Assembly (NCBI GenBank): GCA_017535785.1
Contig: JAFXTN010000037.1
Location: 396,738 to 460,737, forward strand
Origin: Butyrivibrio sp.
GTDB lineage: Bacteria; Bacillota; Clostridia; Lachnospirales; Lachnospiraceae
Direction of reading: 5' to 3'
DNA length: 64,000 nt
The stretch's first letter is position 1. Each line of letters starts with the position of its first letter. Under the pieces are notes generated by a model. The model did no database searches and was not told where the DNA came from. It saw only the letters and a list, made by a program, of their open reading frames with translations. Of this stretch, positions 43,938 through 55,519 are shown one piece after another. The position numbers and the translations under genes were made by a program.

Positions 43938-46412
43938 ATGAACAAAAAGAAGACTCGTAGTGGCAAAGGTAACTTATTTCAATCGGTAAAAGGAAAAATC
44001 CTGATCATGGGTGCACTGGGAATAGCGGCAGCTCTTATCATTGGACTGCTCGGTGTCACATCCATAAACAGGAACGGTCAGAACAGCGAGGTTGTTTCTC
44101 TTGTAAATGAGATCAACGTCTTGCAGTCTCAGAATCTGGCCAATGATGCTCTTTATCAGTACTACGTTGATGAGAGCTATCTTGATGCCACCTTGTCCAA
44201 CCTGGATGAGATGGATCTAAAGGCAAATCAGTTAAAAGCAATAGCTGACAGGGCATATGCAGGTAATGTAGATGCCATTATCACCAATGTTTCCAAGGAC
44301 AAAGCCAATTATGGCGAGATAAAGTCAATACATTCAGAGCGTGGATATGACAGTTCCATCGGTAAGTTCAAGGAATTTACGGATGCAAGTACCGATCTTT
44401 CCGACAGCTTTAAAAACCTTGTAAATAACAATGAGTGGCTCGAGATCCCATGGATCGATTCCACTTTCGGAGTAGAGGGCACACCTGTAACAGTGGACGG
44501 AAAGAACTATACGATGGTCGCTTACGAAAGAGAACTACCGGTAGCGGGAAAGCGTGACAAGCTCGCATTCCGTCTCGGAGGAACTTTTACCTATAAGGGC
44601 GATTACTTCGTTAAGAATGTTCAGCTTGTAAACGGAGCGGAAGTTCTTGATATAGATCTTTCTACATTTGATACCATGGAAAAATCAGGTGATGGCCTTG
44701 CAGAAGCGGATTTCGCTGAATTTGGCGGAGCAACGGCGATAAAGGTCACAGGTAAGTATGATGAAGCCAATGCCAGATGGGAAGAGGCTTCTACGAGTAT
44801 TCCGGTAAAAGAATATGACATCGAGAAATATCCCGTACTTAAATATGAGATGTATCTTGATAATTCAGTTATAAATCCGGGCGGTGAGTATAAATACGGC
44901 GGCTCCATATCCGGAGTATATGACTTTGAAACCAATCTTGAAGAACTGGATACGATGGTAGGTGCCTACAGTAAGCTTGTAGTTGAGGGAAAAGATGTTT
45001 CGGCCAACCTTGCGGAGATAGAAGAGAGAATAGCCGAGATAGAAGCCAATATACCCAAATATACAACAGATCCTTCGCTCGCTGACATCTCACTTGCTTC
45101 TTTGAGCGCCAAGAAAGCCATTTTCGAAGAGCTCAAGACAATAGATGAGAGGACACTTGCGATAAAGGCTGATAACAGTGTGATTAACGGTGAACTCAGT
45201 GAACTTTGCGCACAGGTCCAGGGCGATGCTGTTGCACAGATGAATGCAGTAAGATCAAGCGTAACCGTTATAGTTATCCTGGTCCTTATCATCAGTATCG
45301 TTATCCTACTTCTCATCCTTGCAAGGGTTAGCACAGGTATAAATAAGAGCGTTAATAATTTCAGTACCGCTATTGATGAGATAGCAGGCGGAAATATCTC
45401 GGCAAGAGCCAATGCTGAAGGTAAAGATGAATTTGCACTCTTTGCTTCGAGTCTTAACGGATTCATGGATACGCTGGAAGGAACCATCGGTAAGGTAAAA
45501 GAGCTTACGGGTGTGCTTGCGGATTCCGGATTACAGCTTGAAGAGAGCGCAAACAAGACCAAGATCGTTGCCGGCGAGATAAATGAGACCATAAGTGAGA
45601 TCTCAAAGGGAGCCGGGGAGCAGGCTGTAGATATCGAGTCATCCTCACAGAAGGTTGTTGATATAGGAAACAATATTAAAGAGATCCTTTCAAGTGTATC
45701 GGGACTATCCGAAAAGTCAGGAGATATGAGCAGTGCCGGAAAAGAAGCTTCTGCAAACATGGATACATTGAACAGATCCAGTGTTTCTACAAATGAAGCA
45801 TTCGGAAGGATCGTTGAACAGGTTAACAAGACTGATGAATCCGTAGGAAAGATCCAGGATGCGGTAAGCCTTATAGCATCTGTTGCCAATCAGATAAATC
45901 TTTTGTCTCTTAATGCAAGTATTGAGGCGGCAAGAGCCGGAGAAGCCGGACGAGGCTTTGCGGTAGTTGCGAGTGAGATATCCAATCTTGCCGATCAGAC
46001 CAATGAATCAACTACCATTATCGAGGGCATCATCAAGGATCTTACAGAGGAATCCAGCCGTACCGTTGAGACGATCAATGAAGTTACGGAGCGCATCGAA
46101 GAACAGAAGGATAGCATAAACAATACAAGCAATATTTTCGGCGATGTAAGTACAGGTATCGATTTTACCAGAGAAGCGGTTTCCAAAGTGCTTCAGCAGG
46201 CGGAAGAATGTGAGAAGTCAGGAGAGACGGTTGTCGATCTTATGACCAATCTTTCTGCGATATCACAGGAGAATGCGGCATCTGCAGAGACAACGTCAAC
46301 AGCGATGACAAAGCTCAATATGGAGACGGCAAAGCTTGCAGAGACAAGTGCAGAGCTTAAGAGCCTGGCCGATAACCTAAAAGAAGATCTGGAGTTCTTC
46401 AGGATTGGATGA
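43938..46412 (+). CDS. methyl-accepting chemotaxis protein with large sensor region
   Basis: 824-residue chemoreceptor. Helices at about residues 20-41 and 437-460 enclose an extracellular region of almost 400 residues, far larger than in the other two chemoreceptors here; it contains an all-helical start and a beta-rich middle ([26 protein letters not shown]). The HAMP and signalling domain follow, with [23 protein letters not shown]-like tip. Start 43938 (MNKKKTR) lies 8 bases after GAGGTGG. No sigma-28 site was found upstream. The large insertion suggests a binding-protein-like or multi-domain ligand sensor. Confidence 0.95.
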
Positions 46413-46433
46413 TTTATCGGATGAGAGATAATA

Positions 46434-46467
46434 GAAAAAGGATTTCGGGATTACCCGAAATCCTTTT
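46434..46467. terminator. bidirectional terminator between the chemoreceptor and CAP genes
   Basis: 15-bp perfect stem AAAAAGGATTTCGGG / CCCGAAATCCTTTTT, loop of 4. T-runs follow on both strands, matching the convergent genes. Confidence 0.9.
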
Positions 46468-46490
46468 TTATATATAAGAATATAAGCTCT

Positions 46491-47003
46491 TTACTTTGCA
46501 AATACCTGTATCTGATAGCAGTTGCCGTTATAGTTGGTAAGAAAAGCTCCGCCGTAGTACTCCCAATAAGGCTTTAGCATGTTCTCACGATGGCTTTCGC
46601 TGTTTACGTATGCTTCGAATATATACTCGACATATTCTTCGCCGCTGTCATTAGAAAAATCCCAATCATCAAGGATCTTGGCGATATTTTCACTTCCTCG
46701 CTCATACTTCGTATCAAGCCCGAGATCGGTGTATACAGTCTTATAACTGTCACCGTTCGGCCTCGTGTGATCGAAGTTGACCGGAAGCTCATATAAACGA
46801 ACATCCGCAACATCGAGAAGATCGTCATTTAATTCAAGTGCATCAAGCCCGTTTTCCGCCCTGAATGCATTGATCTTTTGGAGCATGATCAGATCGTAGA
46901 TATCCGGAGGATTGGAAGTTTTAGCATAGGCACTTCCCTTGAAAACGAAAACAGAGCATGTGATCATCAATAGACTAAGGATCATACGTATTGTCTTTTT
47001 CAT
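46491..47003 (-). CDS. secreted CAP (SCP/PR-1) domain protein
   Basis: 170 residues. The signal peptide runs MKKTIRMILSLLMITCSVFV to SAYA. The rest is a CAP domain: LMLQKINAFRAENGLDALELN-like opening, FDHTRPNGDSY (catalytic-like His), GSENIA, FEAYVNSESHRENMLKPYWEYYGGAF and a C-terminal YQIQVFAK strand. CAP proteins are secreted and bind sterols, metals or peptides in other organisms; the bacterial role is unclear. It is a single gene convergent with the chemoreceptor gene. Confidence 0.92.
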   Translation of the reverse strand: MKKTIRMILSLLMITCSVFVFKGSAYAKTSNPPDIYDLIMLQKINAFRAENGLDALELNDDLLDVADVRLYELPVNFDHTRPNGDSYKTVYTDLGLDTKYERGSENIAKILDDWDFSNDSGEEYVEYIFEAYVNSESHRENMLKPYWEYYGGAFLTNYNGNCYQIQVFAK

Positions 47004-47186
47004 AGCTTTTACCTTTATTCGGGCCTTACTATGATGTCATCCGACAGTAGTTACAATCCCCATTCCCAACTTTTTTCTTTTACCTAAATTAATGATACTT
47101 GTGTTTTTGTACCCAAATCAAATAAATAAATCATAAAAATCTATAAACTTTTTAGACAGGTAGAACAGCGCCGGAAAAGTCAAGAC

Positions 47187-47215
47187 TTGTTATTTACTGA
47201 AGTCTGAGGCATTAT
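47187..47215 (+). promoter_or_regulatory. possible promoter of the phosphofructokinase gene
   Basis: TTGTTA, 17 bases, CATTAT, 86 bases upstream of the start codon. No other structure was noticed in this 300-base intergenic region. Confidence 0.35.
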
Positions 47216-47300
47216 TATTTTAGTTGTGTGAAGATTACGGGATCAAGACCGTGATATATAAAAGAAACTACACAAAATCTAACTAAGTTGGGAGGGACTC

Positions 47301-48566
47301 ATGAATAACGTCATAATCGGACAGTCAGGTGGGCCTACGGCCGCTATCAATGCGTCTGTGGCCGGCGCTTACGTACGCGCCAAGGAACTCGGAGCACCAA
47401 AGGTATTCGGTATGCTCCATGGTATTGAAGGTCTTATCAACGGACACATCGTCGATCTGGATAATTATCTGTCAGATACGACCAATGTGGAGTTGCTTAA
47501 GAGGACACCCGCTGCGGTACTCGGAACTTGTAGATACAAGCTTCCTGTAGCAAGTAAGAATGAAGATGACTACATCAAGATCTTCGACGTTCTTGAGAAG
47601 AACAATATCGATATGGTTTTCTATATCGGTGGTAACGATTCAATGGATACTATCATGCAGTTGTCGGATTATGCAAAAGAAAAGGGTAAATCCCAGCGTT
47701 TTATCGGCATACCTAAGACTATCGACAATGATCTTCCTATAACCGATCATTGCCCCGGCTTTGGTTCTGCAGCCAAATATATTGCGACCAGCGTTAAAGA
47801 GCTGATCCGCGACAATCAGGCAGCTGACAAAAGAAATCCTGCAACCGTTATCGTAGAGATCATGGGAAGAAATGCGGGATGGCTTGCGGCAGCAGCATCT
47901 CTTTCAAAATCTGATGATTGCTCGGGACCCGATGCGATCTTTCTTCCGGAGAGACCTTTTGACATGGACAAGTTCATGGATCAGATGAAGGAACTCTCTT
48001 CCAAGGGTAAGCCTATCCTTATTGTAATTTCAGAGGGAATCAAACTTGCCGACGGCACATATGTGTGCGAGCTTGGTGGCAAGGTTGCAACGGATACATT
48101 TGGACATAAGCAGATGAGCGCAGCTTGTAAGGTTCTTGCGGATAAGCTTTCTTCAGAGCTTGGCCTTCGTACAAGAACTGTAGAGCTCAGCACTCTTCAG
48201 AGAGCAGCTTCTCACATGGCATCACTTACAGACGTAAGAGAGGCTTATCAGTGCGGATACGAGGCGCTCAATGCAGCTTCCGCAGGTGAGACAGGAAAGA
48301 TGATCATCATGAAGAGAGCGATGTATCAGGACTTTGGTAAGGAAGAGTGGAGCAGCGATTGCCCTTACATCTGTACTTACGGAACATACGACATACATTC
48401 TATTGCAAACTGCGAGAAGATGATCCCCGACGAGTGGATCACACCCGACGGATGCGGGCTTACAGAGCAGTTTGACAAGTATGCACGTCCTCTTATCTTC
48501 GGCGAGATGATGCCTATCATATCAGGCGGACTTCCCAGACACCTCGTTATCAATGAGGCTGTGTGA
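47301..48566 (+). CDS. pfp: 6-phosphofructokinase, PPi-dependent type
   Basis: 421-residue phosphofructokinase that phosphorylates fructose 6-phosphate. N-terminal NVIIGQSGGPTAAINAS replaces the usual ATP-type GGxxPG opening, and YIGGNDSMDTI (Asp in place of the second Gly of the ATP site) and IPKTIDNDLP are typical of PPi-using enzymes; PGFGSAAKYIA and EIMGRNAGWLAAA are the substrate blocks. PPi use is inferred from these residues. The start follows GGGAGG by 8 bases. It is a single gene with a strong terminator. Confidence 0.92.
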   Translation: MNNVIIGQSGGPTAAINASVAGAYVRAKELGAPKVFGMLHGIEGLINGHIVDLDNYLSDTTNVELLKRTPAAVLGTCRYKLPVASKNEDDYIKIFDVLEKNNIDMVFYIGGNDSMDTIMQLSDYAKEKGKSQRFIGIPKTIDNDLPITDHCPGFGSAAKYIATSVKELIRDNQAADKRNPATVIVEIMGRNAGWLAAAASLSKSDDCSGPDAIFLPERPFDMDKFMDQMKELSSKGKPILIVISEGIKLADGTYVCELGGKVATDTFGHKQMSAACKVLADKLSSELGLRTRTVELSTLQRAASHMASLTDVREAYQCGYEALNAASAGETGKMIIMKRAMYQDFGKEEWSSDCPYICTYGTYDIHSIANCEKMIPDEWITPDGCGLTEQFDKYARPLIFGEMMPIISGGLPRHLVINEAV

Positions 48567-48607
48567 TGTTTTAGTAAATTGAATTAAGAGTAGAGAATGA
48601 TCTAAAG

Positions 48608-48636
48608 CTCCGCGGAAATTTTCCGCGGAGTTTTTT
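48608..48636 (+). terminator. terminator of the phosphofructokinase gene
   Basis: CTCCGCGGAA / TTCCGCGGAG stem followed by TTTTTT. Confidence 0.9.
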
Positions 48637-48650
48637 GTTGATTTAAATCA

Positions 48651-48720
48651 CGTTTAACGTTTAACGTTAAAAAGTTTGTTGTTCATAACAAAAAGACCGT
48701 CGTTCATCACATTGGTGTTG
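48651..48720 (+). promoter_or_regulatory. regulatory repeat copy A (paired LytTR-type boxes)
   Basis: A ~70-bp sequence present again at 49137. It starts with GTTTAACGTT repeats (palindrome TTTAACGTTAAA at 48660-48671) and carries GTTCAT boxes at 48681-48686 and 48702-48707, exactly 21 bp apart. Paired 9-bp boxes two helical turns apart with a GTT core are the known architecture of AgrA/ComE-type LytTR targets. A LytTR regulator is encoded at 51633. A candidate -10 TATAGA lies at 48747. Confidence 0.65.
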
Positions 48721-48848
48721 TAATTGTTTTTAAATGATTGATACGCTATAGAAAATCGTTAATTTTTTATTGGTTCATAGTTAACAAAAAAACCGATAAA
48801 GAAATCAGTATTGACGAAAAAAAGGAAAGTGAGGAGAACTGTAGTATT

Positions 48849-49124
48849 ATGGAAAATCTGATCATTGTTTTCATTCATGTTATTTTATTGGCCCTATGGC
48901 TATTTACAACGTGTAAATTTTGGAAAAAAATACGTGGAAAAAAGCATAATTATGAGCGCATTGAAGATGTTTATGAAATAGCTTTGTTTGATATATCCAT
49001 AATTTTATTACTCATGTATGTGGCGATGATGTCTTTTGGAGTGGGAGTATGGAGCTGTGTTTGTTTGGTCGCGGCCATATGTTTAAGCGCTGTAAATACA
49101 AATATAAAGCAGGTGATGGATTAG
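48849..49124 (+). CDS. small three-helix membrane protein in the LytTR-controlled locus
   Basis: 91 residues starting MENLIIVFIHVIL. Helices lie at about residues 3-20, 47-65 and 67-84, with a basic loop (KKIRGKKHNYERIEDVYE) between the first two. GAGGAG lies about 12 bases upstream, longer than usual. A longer frame begins at 48738 but would start inside the putative promoter. It is too short, and lacks the His/Cys pair, to be an AgrB peptidase. Function is unknown; immunity, export or peptide maturation are possible roles in this setting. Confidence 0.6.
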   Translation: MENLIIVFIHVILLALWLFTTCKFWKKIRGKKHNYERIEDVYEIALFDISIILLLMYVAMMSFGVGVWSCVCLVAAICLSAVNTNIKQVMD

Positions 49125-49136
49125 GAATGGAAATAG

Positions 49137-49206
49137 CATTTAACGTTTATCGTTAAAAAACTTGTCGTTCATAACAAAAATCTGTCGTTCATCCCATTGA
49201 TGTTGA
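49137..49206 (+). promoter_or_regulatory. regulatory repeat copy B (paired LytTR-type boxes)
   Basis: Second copy of the 70-bp repeat, about 80-85% identical to copy A. GTTCAT boxes lie at 49167-49172 and 49187-49192 (20 bp apart); both copies share TTTAACGTTTA and CATTG(A/G)TGTTG flanks. It is placed upstream of the dehydratase-like operon, so both transcripts should respond to the same regulator. Confidence 0.65.
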
Positions 49207-49451
49207 AAAACCTTTTGGCAGCAATTAAGCTTGGTTTGTAAGGCATTCAATGTCTTACCATAACATTATGGGGGAAGTCAAAACACAATGAACATTTTTT
49301 AAATGTACATGAATAACAAAGTCTCTAACATCATTATTGATATAAGTGGATAAAACCAAAACTACTATAACCTGATTATTATTTTTATCCATAATGTTAT
49401 GCCCAAGGCGGACCGGAGTATGTCGTGATACTCCGGTCTTAATTAAACGGA
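49207..49451 (+). promoter_or_regulatory. long leader before the dehydratase-like gene with inverted repeats and a hairpin
   Basis: No gene of its own. CATAACATTATG (49259-49270) and CATAATGTTATG (49390-49401) are exact reverse complements and each is itself nearly palindromic, so they are either two operator sites or the arms of a large stem. A perfect 11-bp hairpin GACCGGAGTAT / ATACTCCGGTC follows at 49411-49438, ending in TTAATT, just 26 bases before the start codon. This suggests control at the leader level, but the mechanism is unknown. Confidence 0.5.
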
Positions 49452-49463
49452 TTGGACGGAGAG

Positions 49464-51119
49464 ATGCAAAAGGATAAGTGTTCGGTCAAAGAAAGCTATA
49501 TGTTTGAATCCATATACGAGACTTTGGCCAAAGAAAAGCTTAGCAACTTTTACAAGGACGTATGTATCTTAACAAGCCGCTACGAAGAAAACGGCGGAGA
49601 ATGTGTTAATATCAGAAGGATCAAGAAGCAGTTTAAGGAATATCTCAAAGGGGAAATAAGAGATATCAGTCAGACACTTCTTATCACGGATATAAATGAA
49701 CAAAGAGCAGGGGTTTTTGAATTCTGGGATCTGTACCCGGATTCACAATATAAACAGTATATAGACCGCTTTTTTGAAAAGTATTACTATGAGAGATTCA
49801 TCGCCAAGTATAAGCTTTGGCATGAGAAGATCCATAGGACAATGGACCTTGGCTATGCATATCTTTTGGAAGTTATAAAGAATTATCTTTCCGATACAGA
49901 TAAGCTGATATGTAAGGGCATTGTAAAAAAAGCTGATGAATACATCCTAAATGAAGTTGAATTCATCGGGGATAAAAGAAACAGCGGAAAATGCATAGTC
50001 AGATGCAAGATCAATGAAGACTATGTTATTTATAAGCCCGAGAACGGAAGGATATTTGAACTGTATGGTAAACTTATAAAGCTTATAAGTGCCGACGACG
50101 ATTACAGGATCTTGAACATTGTTCAGGGAAACAAATATTTTTGGGCCGAGCAGCTTAGCAATGATAATTGTGATGATATAAGCGAGGTAAAAGAGTTTTA
50201 CAAAAACGCAGGATTTATGCTCGTTACAGCATATCTGATGAATGCAGTCGGTATCTGCGAAGAGAAGATTTTCTCCGTAGGGAAATATCCTGTTATGATC
50301 GATGCCGAGACGATCTCTTCGATGGATCTTTTTTCTAAAAAGGTGACCAAAGGGAAAAAGCTTTTTGACAGATCGGTATTTAAGACCGCGATCATTCCTA
50401 TGCATTACAGCAAGGAAAACAAAGATATTATTGAGCATAATGCTTTGGGAGATGTTATATTCTTAGCTCGCTCCGAGAGTGAAGTGATATATGAATTTAC
50501 ATCCAAGGCGATAGAGCGATGGAAAGTCAGAAAATACGAGGGTAAGCATACACATCTACCTAAATTGTTCGGTGATAGCATTCCCGTTTGGGAGTATGTC
50601 GATGATGTTATAACCGGATTTGAAGAAGGCTATGATAATATCATGAGTAGTCTTCCCACTGTATATAAGCTTTTAAAAGATTATGAGAATACCAAGATAA
50701 GAATAAGCTTAAGAAAATCCGAAGTTTATCATGATATGCTGAAAAAGCTGAATTCACCTGAGCTTTTAAAGGATAAAGAGACTACGCAGGATTATCTAAG
50801 ATTTGCTTTTGCAGACAACAGTATAGATGAGTATTCACTTAAGCATGAGATACAGCAGTTGATGAGAGGAGACGTCCCTTATTTTACAACGCTTTTAAAG
50901 GACAGGACGGTATACACTCAGGAATGGGACAGGGCGCTTAAAAGACGCTACGGATCTCCGATAGAATGCATTATGAATAGGCTCGATGATTTTTCTAAAG
51001 AAGATAAAGAAAGACAGATCGATTTCATAAGGAGTGCTTTTGATTATGAACGCTGCAGCTTAGCTTATTTTGATAAAGACAATAATACAGAAAGTGTGGT
51101 GAATGAATGGACATTATGA
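49464..51119 (+). CDS. stand-alone LanM-type dehydratase-like protein (DUF4135), catalytic motif degenerate
   Basis: 551-residue cytoplasmic protein resembling the N-terminal dehydratase half of class II lanthipeptide synthetases. VIYKPENGR (Lys191) matches the kinase-like Lys block; YFWAEQLSND, then MNAVGICEEKIFSVGKYP and MIDAETIS match the block usually reading NGTDxHxENIIAxGxxPVLIDLET. In that block Asp, His and Asn are replaced by Gly263, Cys265 and Lys268; the later Asp280 is kept. There is no C-terminal LanC cyclase domain. It may be a pseudo-enzyme or a binding or regulatory relative. The start at 49464 has GGAG close by; a TTG at 49452 is an alternative. It overlaps the next gene by 13 bases. 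Confidence 0.75.
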   Translation: MQKDKCSVKESYMFESIYETLAKEKLSNFYKDVCILTSRYEENGGECVNIRRIKKQFKEYLKGEIRDISQTLLITDINEQRAGVFEFWDLYPDSQYKQYIDRFFEKYYYERFIAKYKLWHEKIHRTMDLGYAYLLEVIKNYLSDTDKLICKGIVKKADEYILNEVEFIGDKRNSGKCIVRCKINEDYVIYKPENGRIFELYGKLIKLISADDDYRILNIVQGNKYFWAEQLSNDNCDDISEVKEFYKNAGFMLVTAYLMNAVGICEEKIFSVGKYPVMIDAETISSMDLFSKKVTKGKKLFDRSVFKTAIIPMHYSKENKDIIEHNALGDVIFLARSESEVIYEFTSKAIERWKVRKYEGKHTHLPKLFGDSIPVWEYVDDVITGFEEGYDNIMSSLPTVYKLLKDYENTKIRISLRKSEVYHDMLKKLNSPELLKDKETTQDYLRFAFADNSIDEYSLKHEIQQLMRGDVPYFTTLLKDRTVYTQEWDRALKRRYGSPIECIMNRLDDFSKEDKERQIDFIRSAFDYERCSLAYFDKDNNTESVVNEWTL

Positions 51120-51397
51120 AACATGGTATTACTATTCAGAGATTAGCATTTACCTTTGCTTTGATCGCAGCGGTACTTCTTTCGGCAATTAACAAAAATG
51201 ATGGCTTTTATATATCAAATTATGTTATTTTGTCGGCATTTTCGTTGTTGTTTATTTACAGGATACTTTTCCAGGAAAACAGAAAAAATTATTCAAAAAT
51301 GATTTTTGATTTGGAACCACATGAAAAGGCGCTTGCAGGATTAAACGCAGGGTTGGTGATAGCCTGGTTTTTATGCCAGATAAGCTATTTTCAATAG
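51107..51397 (+). CDS. small membrane protein overlapping the dehydratase-like gene
   Basis: 96 residues, three helices at about residues 11-26, 35-51 and 75-93, with a basic loop RILFQENRKNYSKM after the second. It overlaps the end of the dehydratase-like gene (a second ATG at 51116 forms an ATGA overlap), so translation is coupled. I do not recognise the family. It has the size and layout of a bacteriocin immunity or peptide-handling protein, which is only a suggestion from context. Confidence 0.6.
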   Translation: MDIMKHGITIQRLAFTFALIAAVLLSAINKNDGFYISNYVILSAFSLLFIYRILFQENRKNYSKMIFDLEPHEKALAGLNAGLVIAWFLCQISYFQ

Positions 51398-51425
51398 AGC
51401 AAAAAGATGGAAGGAGGAATGTAAA

Positions 51426-51497
51426 ATGATGAACTATGTTTTTGGTTGTATCATGTCAGTTTGTTTAGTTTCATGGGGTGAATTTTTCAAGAAATAA
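51426..51497 (+). CDS. 23-residue peptide gene, candidate signal or RiPP precursor
   Basis: ATG at 51426 is preceded by GGAAGGAGG with 8-base spacing, the best ribosome binding site in the locus. The peptide has a hydrophobic N-terminal two thirds with Cys8, Ser11, Cys13 and Ser16, then Trp17-Gly-Glu and the end FFKK. It is the last gene of the dehydratase-like operon, directly before a terminator, and the Agr-like sensor and regulator follow. No AgrB-like protease is present. It could be a pheromone, a modified peptide or a small membrane-active peptide. Confidence 0.6.
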   Translation: MMNYVFGCIMSVCLVSWGEFFKK

Positions 51498-51502
51498 ATA
51501 AT

Positions 51503-51551
51503 CCCCAGAAGAGATTTTTGCTTGAGGTTTTCTTATAGGGGCGTTTTTTTT
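51503..51551 (+). terminator. terminator of the dehydratase-like/peptide operon
   Basis: Imperfect stem CCCC...AAGA / TCTT...GGGG closed by a large loop, followed by TTTTTTTT. Confidence 0.6.
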
Positions 51552-51552
51552 G

Positions 51553-51580
51553 ATCAGGAGTCGATTATTCGACTCCTGAT
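51553..51580. promoter_or_regulatory. perfect inverted repeat upstream of the LytTR regulator gene
   Basis: 12-bp arms ATCAGGAGTCGA / TCGACTCCTGAT around TTAT, with no T-run after it on either strand. It lies 52 bases before the regulator start. An operator or a 5' hairpin is possible; a plain terminator is unlikely on its own. Confidence 0.45.
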
Positions 51581-51632
51581 GTGCTATTATGGACAATAGG
51601 GATAGAAAAACGTTTATGACGGGGAGAGTATT

Positions 51633-52355
51633 ATGTTCACAATAGCTATATGCGATGATGATGAGAGGATCAGAGGGTTCATACAAGATTGTGCCAATGA
51701 CTTCTTTTCTGTATCGGGAGCTCAGTACAATTTTATTATTTGTAAAAACGGAGAGGAACTGTTAAAAAAGATATCCTCTGTGAGTGAACCGATCAACATT
51801 CTGTTTCTTGATGTCGAGATGCCGGGGAAAACAGGTATTGAGATAAAGGATATTCTTGCAAATAATTCTATAGTTGAAAAGATTGTTTTTATTACCAGTC
51901 ATATAGAGGCAATGCAACAGGCTTTCGGGCTCAGAGTGGTGGGATTCATGAATAAACCGCTTGAAAAAAAGCTTGTCTGTGAGTGGATCAAAAATATCTA
52001 TACTGAATACAGCAGCAGGGAAGGCATTACATTTGGAGATACGTTTTATCAATATGAGGACATCCTTTATATAAGATCAGACGGAAACTATATCATCGCC
52101 AAATTGTCTAACGGAAAAGAAACATCATCTGAAAGGATGGGAGTAGCATCCTTCATTAAGAAGCTTGGAAATAGATTCGTTCGTATCCATAGGTCGTATA
52201 TAGTTAATTTATCTCATGTTCAACGAATCAAATATAATGAGATATGCATCGACAATGAAGAGACACTTCCTCTTGGAAGAAGCTTCTCGGAAAATGTAAA
52301 GAATGAATATGATGATTATGTACTAGCTAAAGTTAAAGGACGTATGGGATGGTAG
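51633..52355 (+). CDS. LytTR-family response regulator (AgrA-like)
   Basis: 240 residues. Receiver domain: AICDDDERIRG, phosphorylated Asp60 in ILFLDVEMPGKTG, VFITSHIEAMQQAFGLRVVGFMNKPL. C-terminal LytTR DNA-binding domain: DILYIRSDGNYIIAKLSNGKE and RFVRIHRSYIVNLSHVQRI. LytTR proteins bind paired GTT-core boxes about 21 bp apart, exactly what the repeats at 48651 and 49137 offer. The start follows GGGGAG by 8 bases. It overlaps the partner kinase gene by 7 bases. Confidence 0.95.
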   Translation: MFTIAICDDDERIRGFIQDCANDFFSVSGAQYNFIICKNGEELLKKISSVSEPINILFLDVEMPGKTGIEIKDILANNSIVEKIVFITSHIEAMQQAFGLRVVGFMNKPLEKKLVCEWIKNIYTEYSSREGITFGDTFYQYEDILYIRSDGNYIIAKLSNGKETSSERMGVASFIKKLGNRFVRIHRSYIVNLSHVQRIKYNEICIDNEETLPLGRSFSENVKNEYDDYVLAKVKGRMGW

Positions 52356-53617
52356 TATTTTTACTGAATAGTTTATTTATTTTCTTTGATTTATGTATAT
52401 ATCTGATAATCTATAGAGTGATCTTTGGTGCTAAATATAAGAAAAACGCATATATTTCAATACTTATCATTTTGGGGGTAAGTATCGGAATAGAGGCGTT
52501 ATCTTTAATGAATGGAAGTGTGATCAATAATGCTACAAAAACAATACTTGCCGGCATCATAATTCCGTTCCTGTTTAATGGGAAGATCCTCAAGTGGTTG
52601 GGGCTGTATTTTCCTATCTTCGGTATTCCTACGACAGTAGCATCAATAGTCAATACCTGGATTGATTCCATCAATACTATTTCTCAGAAGAGCATGTTGG
52701 ATTATTACTCAACAAGATTTCTGAATGTTTTTGTTATGTGCGGACTTTTGTATTTTGTGTACAAAACGAGGAAAAATACGCATGGTATAGAACTAAGCAC
52801 ATTTCAGATAGTTCTTTTGAATATTTGTACCCTGCTCGTGGGTATTACGCTTGCCGAAAAAGAGACCATGTATTCGGTGGGCAGTGAGATAAAAACCGGT
52901 TTATATGTGAATACAGTGACCATAATGAGCCTTGTTTTTTATATGCTCACAATGTATTCGATATATCTTGAAAAATCCCGTATGCATGAGAGATTTATAT
53001 CGGAAAGTCGGCAGAATACGCTAAGATCGCAAAAAGAACAGATAGATGCGATCTTGGAGAGTGAGAGAAAGCTTAGTACCTGCAGACACGATTTTAAGGC
53101 ACATATATATGCACTCAGTTCGCTGGCGGAGGCAGGTGATACGGAAGGCCTTAAGAAGTATTGCAACGGACTTGTGGAGGATAGTAAGAACTTCAGTAAG
53201 CCAATTATTTCGGGAAATGTTGCTGTTGACGGAATACTTGGGCGTTGTATCGATACGTGCAGGGAAAAAGGTATAAACTTTACTTATCAGGTCGCACTTC
53301 TTAAGCAAAACAAAGCGGATGATCATGAGCTTTGCGTTATTTTTTCAAATATCATGAACAATGCGATCGAAGCCTGCGAAAGCGGTGATGAGATAAAGCT
53401 TGTGTGCTATCCGTACAATGATGTTTTGTGTATCCTGCAAAAGAATCCGCTCCACAGGGAGCTAAAATATGAAAACGGAAAGCTTGTCACGACCAAAGAA
53501 GAAAAGGAACTTCACGGCCACGGTCTCGAGAACATCAAGACTGTCATCAAAAAGTATAACGGACACATGGATATAAGGGTAGAGGACGGATATTTCAACG
53601 TAGAACTGATACTCTAA
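52349..53617 (+). CDS. Agr-type sensor histidine kinase (HPK10, GHKL)
   Basis: 422 residues. Six helices fill about residues 1-205 (peptide-sensor type), followed by a short coiled linker and the kinase domain: TCRHDFKAHIYAL (phosphoacceptor His247), IFSNIMNNAIEACESG (N box) and HGHGLENIKTVIKKYNG (G box). Kinases of this class (AgrC, VirS, ComD) sense secreted peptides. It pairs with the regulator it overlaps, and the likely ligand is derived from the 23-residue peptide encoded upstream; this last point is inference. Confidence 0.93.
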   Translation: MVVFLLNSLFIFFDLCIYLIIYRVIFGAKYKKNAYISILIILGVSIGIEALSLMNGSVINNATKTILAGIIIPFLFNGKILKWLGLYFPIFGIPTTVASIVNTWIDSINTISQKSMLDYYSTRFLNVFVMCGLLYFVYKTRKNTHGIELSTFQIVLLNICTLLVGITLAEKETMYSVGSEIKTGLYVNTVTIMSLVFYMLTMYSIYLEKSRMHERFISESRQNTLRSQKEQIDAILESERKLSTCRHDFKAHIYALSSLAEAGDTEGLKKYCNGLVEDSKNFSKPIISGNVAVDGILGRCIDTCREKGINFTYQVALLKQNKADDHELCVIFSNIMNNAIEACESGDEIKLVCYPYNDVLCILQKNPLHRELKYENGKLVTTKEEKELHGHGLENIKTVIKKYNGHMDIRVEDGYFNVELIL

Positions 53618-53764
53618 ACGCCTTCCTGTGAATTATCTGAATTCATAAAAAATTTACTGTTAATTCGGTATGAAATATTAGATAATAATAGTAGACGTTT
53701 TATAGTGAAAAATGGTTTGCTATTATATAATTTGAAGGGTTATCGGTTCGAAAGGAGACTTTAT

Positions 53765-55519
53765 ATGGAAGGCATGAGTACTCAGGACATTCTTAACGGA
53801 CAGGATCTATCTACTGCAAATGTTGACGACCTTTTGGCGGCAATGAAAGCTGAAGAGAATGCCGCAGCGGCTGCTGCGAGCGCGGAGGCGGAAACCGCTG
53901 AAGCACCTGCGCCTGAAACGCCTGCAGAGGAGGCTCCAAAGCCCAAGAGAACTCGTAAGAAAGCGGCTGAGCCTACTCCTGAAGCTGAGACAGTATCTGA
54001 AGCCGATATACCCGATCTTGATGAGATAATTGCCGAAGAAAAGGCTAAAACCGCAGCAGCGGAGGCTGCTGTTGATGCTGATATTCCTGCAAGTCCCGCA
54101 GAAACCGCTGAAGCCGATGCAATGGCAGCAATGGCTGCTATGGCAGGCGAAGCAGTGGCTGAACCGGCGGCGGAAGCTGTTGATATTGATGCTATGTTGG
54201 CTGCAAGCGGAAGTGAAGCTACCGGAGCGGAGATTCCTGCGATGGAAGAACCTGCACCTGAGGCGGCGCCCGTAGACGTTGATGCTATGCTTGCCGCTAT
54301 GGCGAATGCAGAGACGGCCTCGGATGTTGATGCTCTTATGGCAGCAGCGGCGGCTGAAGCATCCGCAGAACCTGCACCTGAGGAAGCACCTGATATTACA
54401 GCAGAAATGCCTGCTGATGCTATTGCGGAGCCCGTGGCAGAAGCGCCCGCAGACGGCGCAACAGATATAGATGCGATGCTTGCGGCTATGGGAGCAAGCG
54501 ATGTTGCAAATGAAGCACTTGCACAGGCAATGCCCGAGCTCGCACCGGAAGCAGCTGCTGCAGAGGCTGCACCCGATATTGATAATTCCGCTTTGGCGGA
54601 CGACGCGCTTGATCTGGGCGCCGCACCGGCAACAGATGAGCAGGCATCTGAGTTGGAAGTACTTGGATCAGCATTGACAACAGAAGAACAGGCAGCTGAG
54701 CTTGAAGCGCTCGTAGCTGCATCGGAAGCTGCAATGCCGTCAGAAGAGCCTGCACCGGAAGCAGCACCTGATATTGCAGCAGAAGAGCCTGCACCGGAGG
54801 CTGTTCCTGATATCGCGGCAGAAGCTCTTGCAGAGCCTTCACCCGAAACAATGGAAATCCCCGATATCGAGGAGCCTGTTCTTGCAGAGCCCGTGATAGA
54901 AGAGCCTGCATTAGAGGAGCCTTCGCTCGGAGACGTTGTTGCGCAGGAGACGGCGGCAGAAGCGATTGCACCTGACGCCGGAGCTGCAGAAATACAGATG
55001 CCTGATGTGGCAGCACCTGAGGCCGGAGCGCCGGAAGCAATTGCTCCTGAGGCAGCAACTGCAGATGCAGCCGAGATGGATGCCCTTATGGCTGCAATGG
55101 CGGCTGCTGAGAGCGACGCCGCTATGGCAGAAAACGCAGGTCAGAGTCTTGATGATATCCTGAATGCGGAAGTTGATGCGCTCACAGAGCCTGTGGAAGA
55201 AGAGCCTTACGATTCCGGAATGACGATGGCAGATGCCGTTGCCGGAGCGGTTACAGATATAGAGAGCTTCCTTGATACCGAGGATTATGAATATACAGTA
55301 GTAAGCAGCGGTGCCAAGACTCTTATCATCATCAAGACCAATGAGAGTAACGCACTTGCGGTTACTTATGAAAACGGCGAATTCGAATCTCTGCAGCCCG
55401 GATACAGCAAGGAAGATAAGCGTGGCTACAGTGATATCATGAATGCCTTTGTCAAAGAGACTATCTCATCCGGAGGAAGCTTCGAGATCAAGAGGCATAA
55501 AGGCAACAAGTTCGTATAA
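53765..55519 (+). CDS. Ala/Glu/Pro-rich protein with repeated acidic short motifs
   Basis: 584 residues. Residues 1-480 are low complexity (Ala, Glu, Pro, Asp) and probably extended or disordered, with a basic patch KPKRTRKKA near 59-67. A short motif recurs: NVDDLLAAM (19), DIDAMLAAS (140), DVDAMLAAM (171), DVDALMAAA (187), DIDAMLAAM (234), EMDALMAAM (437). These resemble the EIDALL peptide at the N-terminus of FliM/FliN-type switch proteins. A folded C-terminal domain (about 483-584) contains YTVVSSGAKTLIIIKTNESNALAVTYENGEFE. No signal peptide or helix. Start 53765 follows AAAGGAG. I do not recognise the family. Confidence 0.75.
   Translation: MEGMSTQDILNGQDLSTANVDDLLAAMKAEENAAAAAASAEAETAEAPAPETPAEEAPKPKRTRKKAAEPTPEAETVSEADIPDLDEIIAEEKAKTAAAEAAVDADIPASPAETAEADAMAAMAAMAGEAVAEPAAEAVDIDAMLAASGSEATGAEIPAMEEPAPEAAPVDVDAMLAAMANAETASDVDALMAAAAAEASAEPAPEEAPDITAEMPADAIAEPVAEAPADGATDIDAMLAAMGASDVANEALAQAMPELAPEAAAAEAAPDIDNSALADDALDLGAAPATDEQASELEVLGSALTTEEQAAELEALVAASEAAMPSEEPAPEAAPDIAAEEPAPEAVPDIAAEALAEPSPETMEIPDIEEPVLAEPVIEEPALEEPSLGDVVAQETAAEAIAPDAGAAEIQMPDVAAPEAGAPEAIAPEAATADAAEMDALMAAMAAAESDAAMAENAGQSLDDILNAEVDALTEPVEEEPYDSGMTMADAVAGAVTDIESFLDTEDYEYTVVSSGAKTLIIIKTNESNALAVTYENGEFESLQPGYSKEDKRGYSDIMNAFVKETISSGGSFEIKRHKGNKFV

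Follow-up and report, generated by a model that had tools for sequence, protein, structure and literature searches.

A candidate peptide-pheromone locus of Butyrivibrio with a catalytically eroded LanM dehydratase domain

What does a protein built from the dehydratase half of a lanthipeptide synthetase (LanM) do when it is encoded beside a 23-residue peptide, a LytTR response regulator and a sensor kinase? The question is raised by a locus at positions 48651 to 53617 of a 64,000-nucleotide (nt) stretch of Butyrivibrio sp. DNA (GenBank assembly GCA_017535785.1, contig JAFXTN010000037.1, positions 396,738 to 460,737 of the forward strand; the whole stretch is called “the window” below). The assembly, from a rumen-type bacterium, is 2.9 Mb in size and 90.8% complete, and the stretch lies on its contig C16. 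We favor the view that the locus is a self-inducing peptide-pheromone system that would work much as Agr does but with other parts, and in which the LanM relative, called here the DUF4135 protein, is a pseudo-enzyme. What can be read from the sequence is a conserved gene set, co-variation of peptide and kinase, rarity of the regulator boxes, loss of active-site residues, purifying selection and a structured leader RNA. An earlier sequence-only reading of this DNA had described repeats, GTTCAT pairs, small proteins, a LanM relative, a peptide, a regulator and a kinase on one strand, and open reading frame (ORF) and profile analysis found all of them where it had put them. It had overlooked the leader RNA, which lies between the second box and the DUF4135 gene. 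The features of the locus are the following (aa, amino acids):

48651..48723, plus strand: putative regulator box 1, whose two GTTCAT half-sites start 21 nt from each other, 5′ of the 91-aa gene
48849..49124, plus strand: accessory membrane protein of 91 aa, found at 2 of 5 loci (window and L003)
49131..49208, plus strand: putative regulator box 2, found at 5 of 5 loci, whose two GTTCAT half-sites start 20 nt from each other; it lies 5′ of the leader RNA and of the putative DUF4135 operon
49258..49439, plus strand: structured 5′ leader RNA, from alignment, fold z-scores and covariation in its 3′ hairpin
49464..51119, plus strand: DUF4135 protein, 551 aa, LanM dehydratase domain without cyclase and with an eroded active site, from profiles and the active-site comparison
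51107..51397, plus strand: 96-aa membrane protein, 5 of 5 loci, its gene sharing 13 nt with the 3′ end of the DUF4135 gene
51426..51497, plus strand: 23-aa peptide MMNYVFGCIMSVCLVSWGEFFKK with a GGAGG Shine-Dalgarno sequence, peptide ORF in 5 of 5 loci with a strongly differing product
51633..52355, plus strand: LytTR response regulator by Pfam, D60 invariant in 5 of 5 loci
52349..53617, plus strand: GHKL sensor kinase with six hydrophobic segments, residues 1-215 following peptide type, C-terminal half conserved

The regulator matched the LytTR (3.5e-15) and receiver (5.8e-11) profiles, and the kinase is GHKL by profile (3.1e-19), a label that replaces the earlier “HPK10”. A CCCC/GGGG hairpin with a T run lies 3′ of the peptide gene (seen by eye; missed by the terminator scan), and the regulator pair is therefore probably on its own transcript.

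Is this gene set kept in other genomes? When a sample of 79 genomes of the genus (own genome included) was searched with the DUF4135 protein, 10 of the 79 gave a match at E 1e-5. A short form of 538-551 aa was found in four genomes (G000, G028, G036 and G070) at five loci: that of the window and those designated L003, L004, L021 and L022. The four other short proteins are 84, 79, 79 and 60% identical to that of the window, the last being L021. All five loci preserve the order DUF4135, 96-aa protein, peptide ORF, regulator, kinase. The expectation that the small proteins and the peptide would be kept in synteny thus held for the 96-aa protein and the peptide, together with DUF4135 and the regulator pair, and failed for the 91-aa protein, which is found at two loci. 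The sequence-only reading had also stated that homologues of the locus without the peptide, or without the regulator pair, would refute it; all five loci keep both. The 96-aa protein has ortholog-level matches (E 1e-40 or better; next best 1.9e-4) at exactly these five loci, and so does the kinase (E 1e-247 or better; next best 4e-33). No ortholog-level match was found outside the set when 397 genomes sampled from the family, 392 from the order and 391 from the class were searched, no relative was among 449 pattern stretches from IMG/VR, and every one of 146 plasmid records was below 60% identity (the ten that were listed carry a LanM or SivM annotation). The seven next most similar kinases (L108-L114) have neither a DUF4135 nor a 96-aa protein nearby, as judged by eye. 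All five loci are flanked by a phosphofructokinase-like gene on one side and by an Ala-rich protein and then a MATE-like transporter on the other (names by eye).

The peptide ORF begins in every locus with ATG, runs for 22-27 codons behind a GGAGG Shine-Dalgarno sequence and lies just 3′ of the 96-aa gene; in the window it is the only ORF of 18-35 aa among 15 GGAGG-N4..10-ATG starts. The sequences are MMNYVFGCIMSVCLVSWGEFFKK (window), MGYQIMSCIMSMCLFSWGELIY (L004), MGYIQSIFISCAYWEGVCDAVKALLNV (L003), MGFIQSIFISCAYWEGVCDAVKALLNV (L022) and MSFLVWLSSSCFCFADWSDIFGSLF (L021). Each of the five contains two Cys and no fewer than two Ser. In all of them a Trp stands three or four residues past a Cys (C-x-x-x-W in three, C-x-x-W in two) and is followed by an acidic residue after one or two positions, and none has a GG leader. 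They are hydrophobic, with a grand average of hydropathy (GRAVY) of 0.9 to 1.15.

Which protein would respond to such a peptide? L003, L004 and L022 are closely related, with mutual identities of 97-99% in the 96-aa protein, 99-100% in the regulator and 96-98% in the C-terminal half of the kinase. L003 and L022 also share the peptide (96%) and the N-terminal half of the kinase (99%), whereas L004 is 17-21% identical to both of them in the peptide and 63% in kinase residues 1-215. Compared with L022 alone, L004 is 99% identical in DUF4135, 99% in the 96-aa protein, 100% in the regulator and 98% in the kinase C-half, as against 17% in the peptide and 63% in the kinase N-half. At the DNA level, the identity of L004 to L003 and L022 has two troughs, one of 56-61% at 51400-51580 and one of 51-89% that begins at 52383 and extends to about 53010; in the regulator, which lies between them, it is 88-100%. 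The peptide with its spacer and the kinase N-half (878 of 4161 columns) hold 256 of the 325 differences between L004 and L022. Synonymous divergence (dS, Nei-Gojobori) between these two reaches 0.93 for the kinase N-half, compared with 0.16 for the regulator, 0.13 for the C-half of the kinase and 0.06 for DUF4135. Joint change of this kind is the signature of pheromone and receptor allele groups, an interpretation that is well supported, from few loci. It makes the kinase the most likely sensor of the peptide, as had been proposed from the sequence of the window.

A second test comes from the window itself. Its peptide is nearest that of L004 (48% identity, vs 17% to L003), with informative sites at 7 vs 1 (p 0.07) being too few for significance; its kinase N-half sides with L004 over L003 at 36 vs 16 sites (p 0.008). 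Residues 1-300 of its DUF4135 protein side with L003 (45 vs 15 sites, p 0.0001), and the remaining segments show no preference between the two. Since DUF4135 sides with one locus and the peptide and kinase N-half with the other, DUF4135 is, as far as sequence comparison tells, not matched to peptide type; like the 96-aa protein, it is outside the varying unit.

The same observations bear on a very improbable alternative, in which the peptide stays in the membrane of the cell that makes it and regulates the kinase by helix packing, with no signaling between cells. In favor of it, the peptide is short and hydrophobic and no export gene is linked to it. Replacement of peptide and sensor together between close relatives is, however, the pattern of cell-to-cell pherotypes, and a private partner hardly needs swapping; moreover, the window peptide, the only one of the five that was run, has no 19-residue stretch at the membrane threshold.

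How close is the locus to Agr? Agr systems (agrBDCA) combine a GHKL kinase with six hydrophobic segments, a LytTR regulator, paired boxes and a variable peptide that co-varies with its sensor. Here we found likewise a GHKL kinase with six hydrophobic segments and a LytTR regulator, boxes paired about two helical turns apart, and co-variation of peptide and sensor; the locus differs from Agr in having no AgrB, no AgrD by profile and no processing enzyme that co-varies with the peptide. The earlier statement that AgrB, LanC, LanT and a C39 peptidase are absent from the locus was borne out (AgrB by PF04647; precursor and C39 by eye). AgrB (PF04647) is present at one place per genome in the four carriers, always on other contigs. 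The window peptide has no NCBIfam match at E 1, and the AgrD profile TIGR04223, searched with E up to 10, matches only other contigs in the four genomes; 10 of 14 control genomes also gave sub-cut-off matches to it.

It is improbable that the peptide is an unusual AgrD matured in trans by that single genomic AgrB. In favor of it, all five peptides show the Cys-Trp spacing with a nearby acidic residue, Lactobacillus plantarum LamD gives a CxxxW thiolactone, and one AgrB is available in 4 of 4 genomes. Yet all four genomes have, 3.9 kb away from that AgrB, an AgrD that scores above the cut-off, the TIGR04223 matches lie elsewhere than this locus, and the peptide has no charged leader. At those genomic sites (L131, on G000:C2, L132, L133 and L134), a canonical AgrB adjoins its own regulator, and a kinase lies between AgrB and the AgrD 3.9 kb off, with equal spacing in the four genomes.

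AgrB catalysis depends on a Cys/His dyad. The 96-aa protein was considered as a stand-in for AgrB and rejected: it has no invariant Cys or His across the five loci and does not vary with peptide type. Its model has three helices (predicted local confidence, pLDDT, 72). Profile matches to it at E up to 1 occur in 47 of 79 genomes, the best outside the five loci being 1.9e-4. The 91-aa protein matched no Pfam or NCBIfam family above cut-off. Each small window protein has three hydrophobic segments, and the L021 form of the 96-aa protein has two.

Does the DUF4135 protein still modify peptides? It matches Pfam DUF4135 (PF13575) at E 2e-51, and residues 45-531 align to positions 22-520 of the 932-position LanM profile TIGR03897 (238 bits, below the cut-off of 304). 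Because the match stops at 520 of 932, the protein corresponds to the N-terminal half of LanM only; no LanC-like cyclase domain is present in it and no LanC-sized ORF in the window locus, so the earlier description of a cyclase-less LanM relative was correct. It aligns to the dehydratase domains of LicM2 (PDB 6st5; E 9.7e-22, query 71-523) and CylM (5dzt; E 3e-12, query 161-525). Thus it shares the dehydratase domain with LanM enzymes, and differs from them in lacking the cyclase and catalytic residues; the locus has no LanA-type precursor or LanT, and no leader-bearing precursor or C39 transporter was seen by eye among the ORFs of the five loci.

Nine residues of CylM (D252, H254, K274, D347, H349, N352, D364, R506 and T512) are reported as positions at which mutation impaired or abolished activity (PMC4550811). 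The equivalents of D252, K274, D364 and R506 are kept in all five DUF4135 proteins. That of H254 is R in all five; that of H349 is lost in all five, being C, S, D, N or Q; that of N352 is K in four and N in L021; that of D347 is G in the window and L003 and D in the other three; and that of T512 is S, R, R, R and T, changed in four. For comparison, 48 loci were offered, of which 30 gave a complete frame of at least 480 aa matching at E 1e-5 (31 frames, 22 distinct) and 18 gave none. The first eight residues are retained in 21 of these 22 LanMs and T512 in 20; the outlier is L012. This 514-aa frame (G012:C28) has changed D252, H254 and T512 positions and intact D347, H349 and N352, and may be a separate cyclase-less dehydratase or a fragment.

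The eroded proteins are not decaying. Ratios of nonsynonymous to synonymous substitution (dN/dS, Nei-Gojobori) were 0.07-0.17 in the six pairs with computable dS, the four L021 pairs being saturated, and DUF4135 is thus under purifying selection. Selection on a protein whose active site has eroded makes it probable that DUF4135 is a pseudo-enzyme, an effector or binding protein that perhaps still binds nucleotide or peptide, and the loss of key catalytic residues suggests that it probably serves the signaling circuit rather than the making of an antibiotic.

The active-site comparison is the reason why we treat a dehydratase function as a rival and consider it quite unlikely. It would make the locus a minimal pathway for a ribosomally synthesized and post-translationally modified peptide (RiPP), in which DUF4135 still phosphorylates or dehydrates Ser of the peptide, or does both, and cyclization on Cys may occur spontaneously or in trans, yielding a modified pheromone; the sequence-only reading had likewise suggested that the LanM relative perhaps handles the peptide, and LanM-type handling of Ser/Thr finds no support in the comparison. 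The peptides do offer two Cys and at least two Ser in all five cases, four catalytic positions are retained throughout, and all four genomes encode, at another site, a full LanM cluster that seems by eye to include a C39-type transporter. Excised CylM, HalM2 and NukM dehydratase domains are described as working without a cyclase, and CcaM as acting leader-free (PMC10676384); some single CylM mutants are described as retaining activity (PMC4550811). Against this stand the combined loss of H254 and H349 in all five proteins, of N352 in four and of D347 in two, the window included, and the change of T512 in four, where 21 of 22 comparison LanMs are intact (20 for T512); the free variation of the H349 position; the independence of DUF4135 sequence from peptide type; and peptides without a leader sequence. 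CcaM, one of the LanMbC dehydratases, resembles the protein studied here in being a DUF4135 outside canonical LanM and in its ability to act leader-free, and differs in that it is described as needing its own class III cyclase domain and as partnering with YcaO (PMC10676384), neither of which is present here.

From their ORF translations, the LanM clusters of the four carriers (L023, on G000:C22, L024, L025 and L026) appear to be complete class II lanthipeptide clusters, with a LanM of ~998 aa, a flavin-reductase-like protein, a C39-type transporter and a protease-like protein. They also contain several precursor-like ORFs with GAGD/GSGD-type leaders and lie beside their own LytTR/GHKL pair. 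All four carriers of the short DUF4135 also encode a full LanM, and 10 of the 79 genomes show a match of any kind; this co-occurrence is confounded by kinship. An origin of DUF4135 in the resident ~998-aa LanM was tried and dropped: in a FastTree built on the dehydratase domain, the five short proteins sat apart from it on a long branch (1.7), a placement that we do not trust.

Is a degenerate LanM relative next to a signaling system without precedent? The sequence-only reading had found no described system with this set, which stands for the full set: among the open-access titles and abstracts listed, several listings being the best 10-15 of up to 378, there was no paper on it. A degenerate LanM-like effector of Agr, in contrast, has been published. 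Homologues of CA_C0082 (LanM-like, 670-728 aa) are described as lying directly 3′ of the agr cluster in all but one species and as missing catalytic residues, and CA_C0082 of C. acetobutylicum as Agr-controlled, dispensable for an active signal and required for granulose (PMC10301443, Humphreys et al. 2023). Going by that published description, and not by sequence, the likeness is a degenerate LanM-derived protein beside a peptide, kinase and regulator system. The differences are these: (i) CA_C0082 is described as keeping a zinc-less cyclase domain and lacking parts of the dehydratase domain, whereas here the dehydratase domain stands alone, and (ii) its homologues are mostly 3′ of agrBD-agrCA, whereas here DUF4135 is inside the putative peptide operon with no AgrB or recognizable AgrD (PMC10301443). 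What would be new, then, is a variant of peptide-pheromone signaling with a catalytically eroded LanM remnant, the degenerate LanM-like quorum-sensing effector being already known.

What does the regulator control? The two boxes lie in repeats that pair 48645-48694 with 49131-49180 (86% over 50 nt) and 48691-48723 with 49176-49208 (82% over 33 nt), the GTTCAT half-sites starting at 48681 and 48702 and at 49167 and 49187. The paired pattern was observed twice in the window vs 0.04 expected, and none of 100 shuffles reached two. With the final C fixed it has two exact sites in the whole own assembly, both here, and its reversed-pattern control has none. A stricter form of the box gave six sites in the four genomes, all inside these loci, with none for reversed-pattern controls; in L004 and L022, the second half-site of box 2 reads GTTCGT. 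In these scans the paired boxes were found at this locus only. At some loci the same box also leads other genes: in L003 it precedes small membrane genes of 144 and 91 aa, in L004 a 144-aa gene with a 77-aa gene and an ABC transporter 3′ of it, and in L021 a small membrane gene of 146 aa. No box-led gene besides the DUF4135 operon was found within the 19 kb fetched for L022. Because the boxes are confined to these loci and lead differing genes, the system seems, from the predicted sites, mainly to control itself plus a variable protection-like module. The interval between the phosphofructokinase-like gene and DUF4135 in L003, L004, L021 and L022 is a hot spot of gene turnover; it can hold small membrane genes, an ABC transporter of the lantibiotic-protection type, or ORFs that by eye resemble the Rpn/PD-(D/E)XK family.

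Variable box-led membrane genes are also what an autoinducing bacteriocin would have, with the peptide as both toxin and inducer and the 91-aa, 144-aa and 96-aa proteins and the L004 ABC transporter as immunity. The best family of the L004 ATPase is indeed the lantibiotic-protection family TIGR03740 (233 bits, below the cut-off of 309.75), and two ABC-2-type permeases accompany it, although these are just below the Pfam cut-off (26.1 and 24.2 of 27 bits). We consider this unlikely. L022 has no accessory box-led gene in its 19 kb, and the 96-aa protein, the only shared membrane protein, is 97-99% identical despite different peptides, unlike a specific immunity protein.

What lies between box 2 and the DUF4135 gene? 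The leader region (window 49246-49463; L003 7781-8000; L004 7778-7997; L022 10299-10520; L021 10013-10297) has a core of 147 positions, of which 140 are invariant in four loci and 110 in all five; L021 shares 113 and has ~80 extra nt inside. A closing helix of 13 pairs (49259-49271 with 49389-49401) encloses a conserved interior, and because it does not vary, covariation neither supports nor contradicts it. In the 3′ hairpin (49410-49439), all 12 pairs are retained at each of the five loci, and four of them, the only such pairs in the leader, have changes on both sides; RNAalifold counts three such pairs. In L021, pairing is interrupted in two small inner helices (paired cells 86.7 and 85%). 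Fold z-scores are -3.42 for the window and -5.18 for L021. Rfam, searched over window 46000-54500 with E up to 1, gave four matches, none above gathering score and none overlapping 49258-49439. A leader model found matches at the five loci only among the 79 genus genomes, with stricter filters applied above 40 genomes. A small coding gene was rejected as an explanation, the short frames on either strand seeming by eye to be unkept in L021. It is possible that the leader controls DUF4135 translation or is an RNA output.

Taken together, the proposed pheromone circuit would run as follows. A short hydrophobic Cys/Trp peptide would be exported and then sensed through the membrane half of the kinase encoded with it. 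The LytTR regulator would next bind the paired GTTCAT boxes and activate (a) a putative operon of leader RNA, DUF4135, 96-aa protein and peptide and (b) locus-specific small membrane proteins, with a lantibiotic-protection-type ABC transporter in one locus. DUF4135, derived from a LanM dehydratase domain, may act as an effector of the circuit or as a peptide-binding or escort protein, and not in peptide dehydration. A bolder version is possible, though we hold it doubtful: a pheromone system lacking AgrB that has recruited a dead LanM dehydratase domain as a peptide-binding or effector protein, as an independent mirror image of the CA_C0082 family, and in which the regulator-driven leader would be a second, RNAIII-like output.

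Several points weigh against the pheromone circuit. The sample is five loci in four genomes of a single genus, and two of the loci are in one metagenome-assembled genome (G036, 5% contamination) on separate contigs with duplicated neighbors, so that this bin is probably mixed; the strongest mosaic evidence comes from three closely related loci. Translation, secretion and binding of the peptide are predicted only, and the window locus contains neither a linked transporter nor a protease nor AgrB to which export could be assigned. Residual or altered DUF4135 activity is possible, because CylM H349A and H254A are described as nearly or fully active after long incubation and N352A as giving partly modified product in vitro (PMC4550811); the K274, D364 and R506 equivalents are also kept in five of five proteins and that of D347 in three, and an AlphaFold model of DUF4135 was unusable (pLDDT 34). 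The stricter box form misses box-1-type sites and the looser pattern was scanned genome-wide in the own genome only. No sigma-70-like promoter is listed behind either box, in a region with 20 such promoters vs 19.8 in shuffles.

If the pheromone reading holds, this would be a second instance in which a LanM derivative that has lost its active site is linked to peptide signaling, with the half retained here being the opposite of the half best kept in the published Clostridium case. Repeated reuse of LanM remnants as quorum-sensing effectors, and pheromone production without a linked export or maturation gene, become testable. RiPP mining keyed on DUF4135 might wrongly call this locus a lanthipeptide cluster.

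Besides L012, other short DUF4135 frames were seen in G103:C23 (517 aa), G911:C19 and G1072:C151. Around the window locus, a terminator-like hairpin at 48604-48634 ends the upstream phosphofructokinase-like gene (gene name by eye), and 5′ of the locus a CAP-domain protein (46491-47003, minus strand; Pfam 6.7e-9) has a signal-peptide-like start (by eye). An Ala/Glu-rich repeat protein 3′ of the kinase (53765-55519), with no Pfam family above cut-off, is present in all five loci and varies in length.

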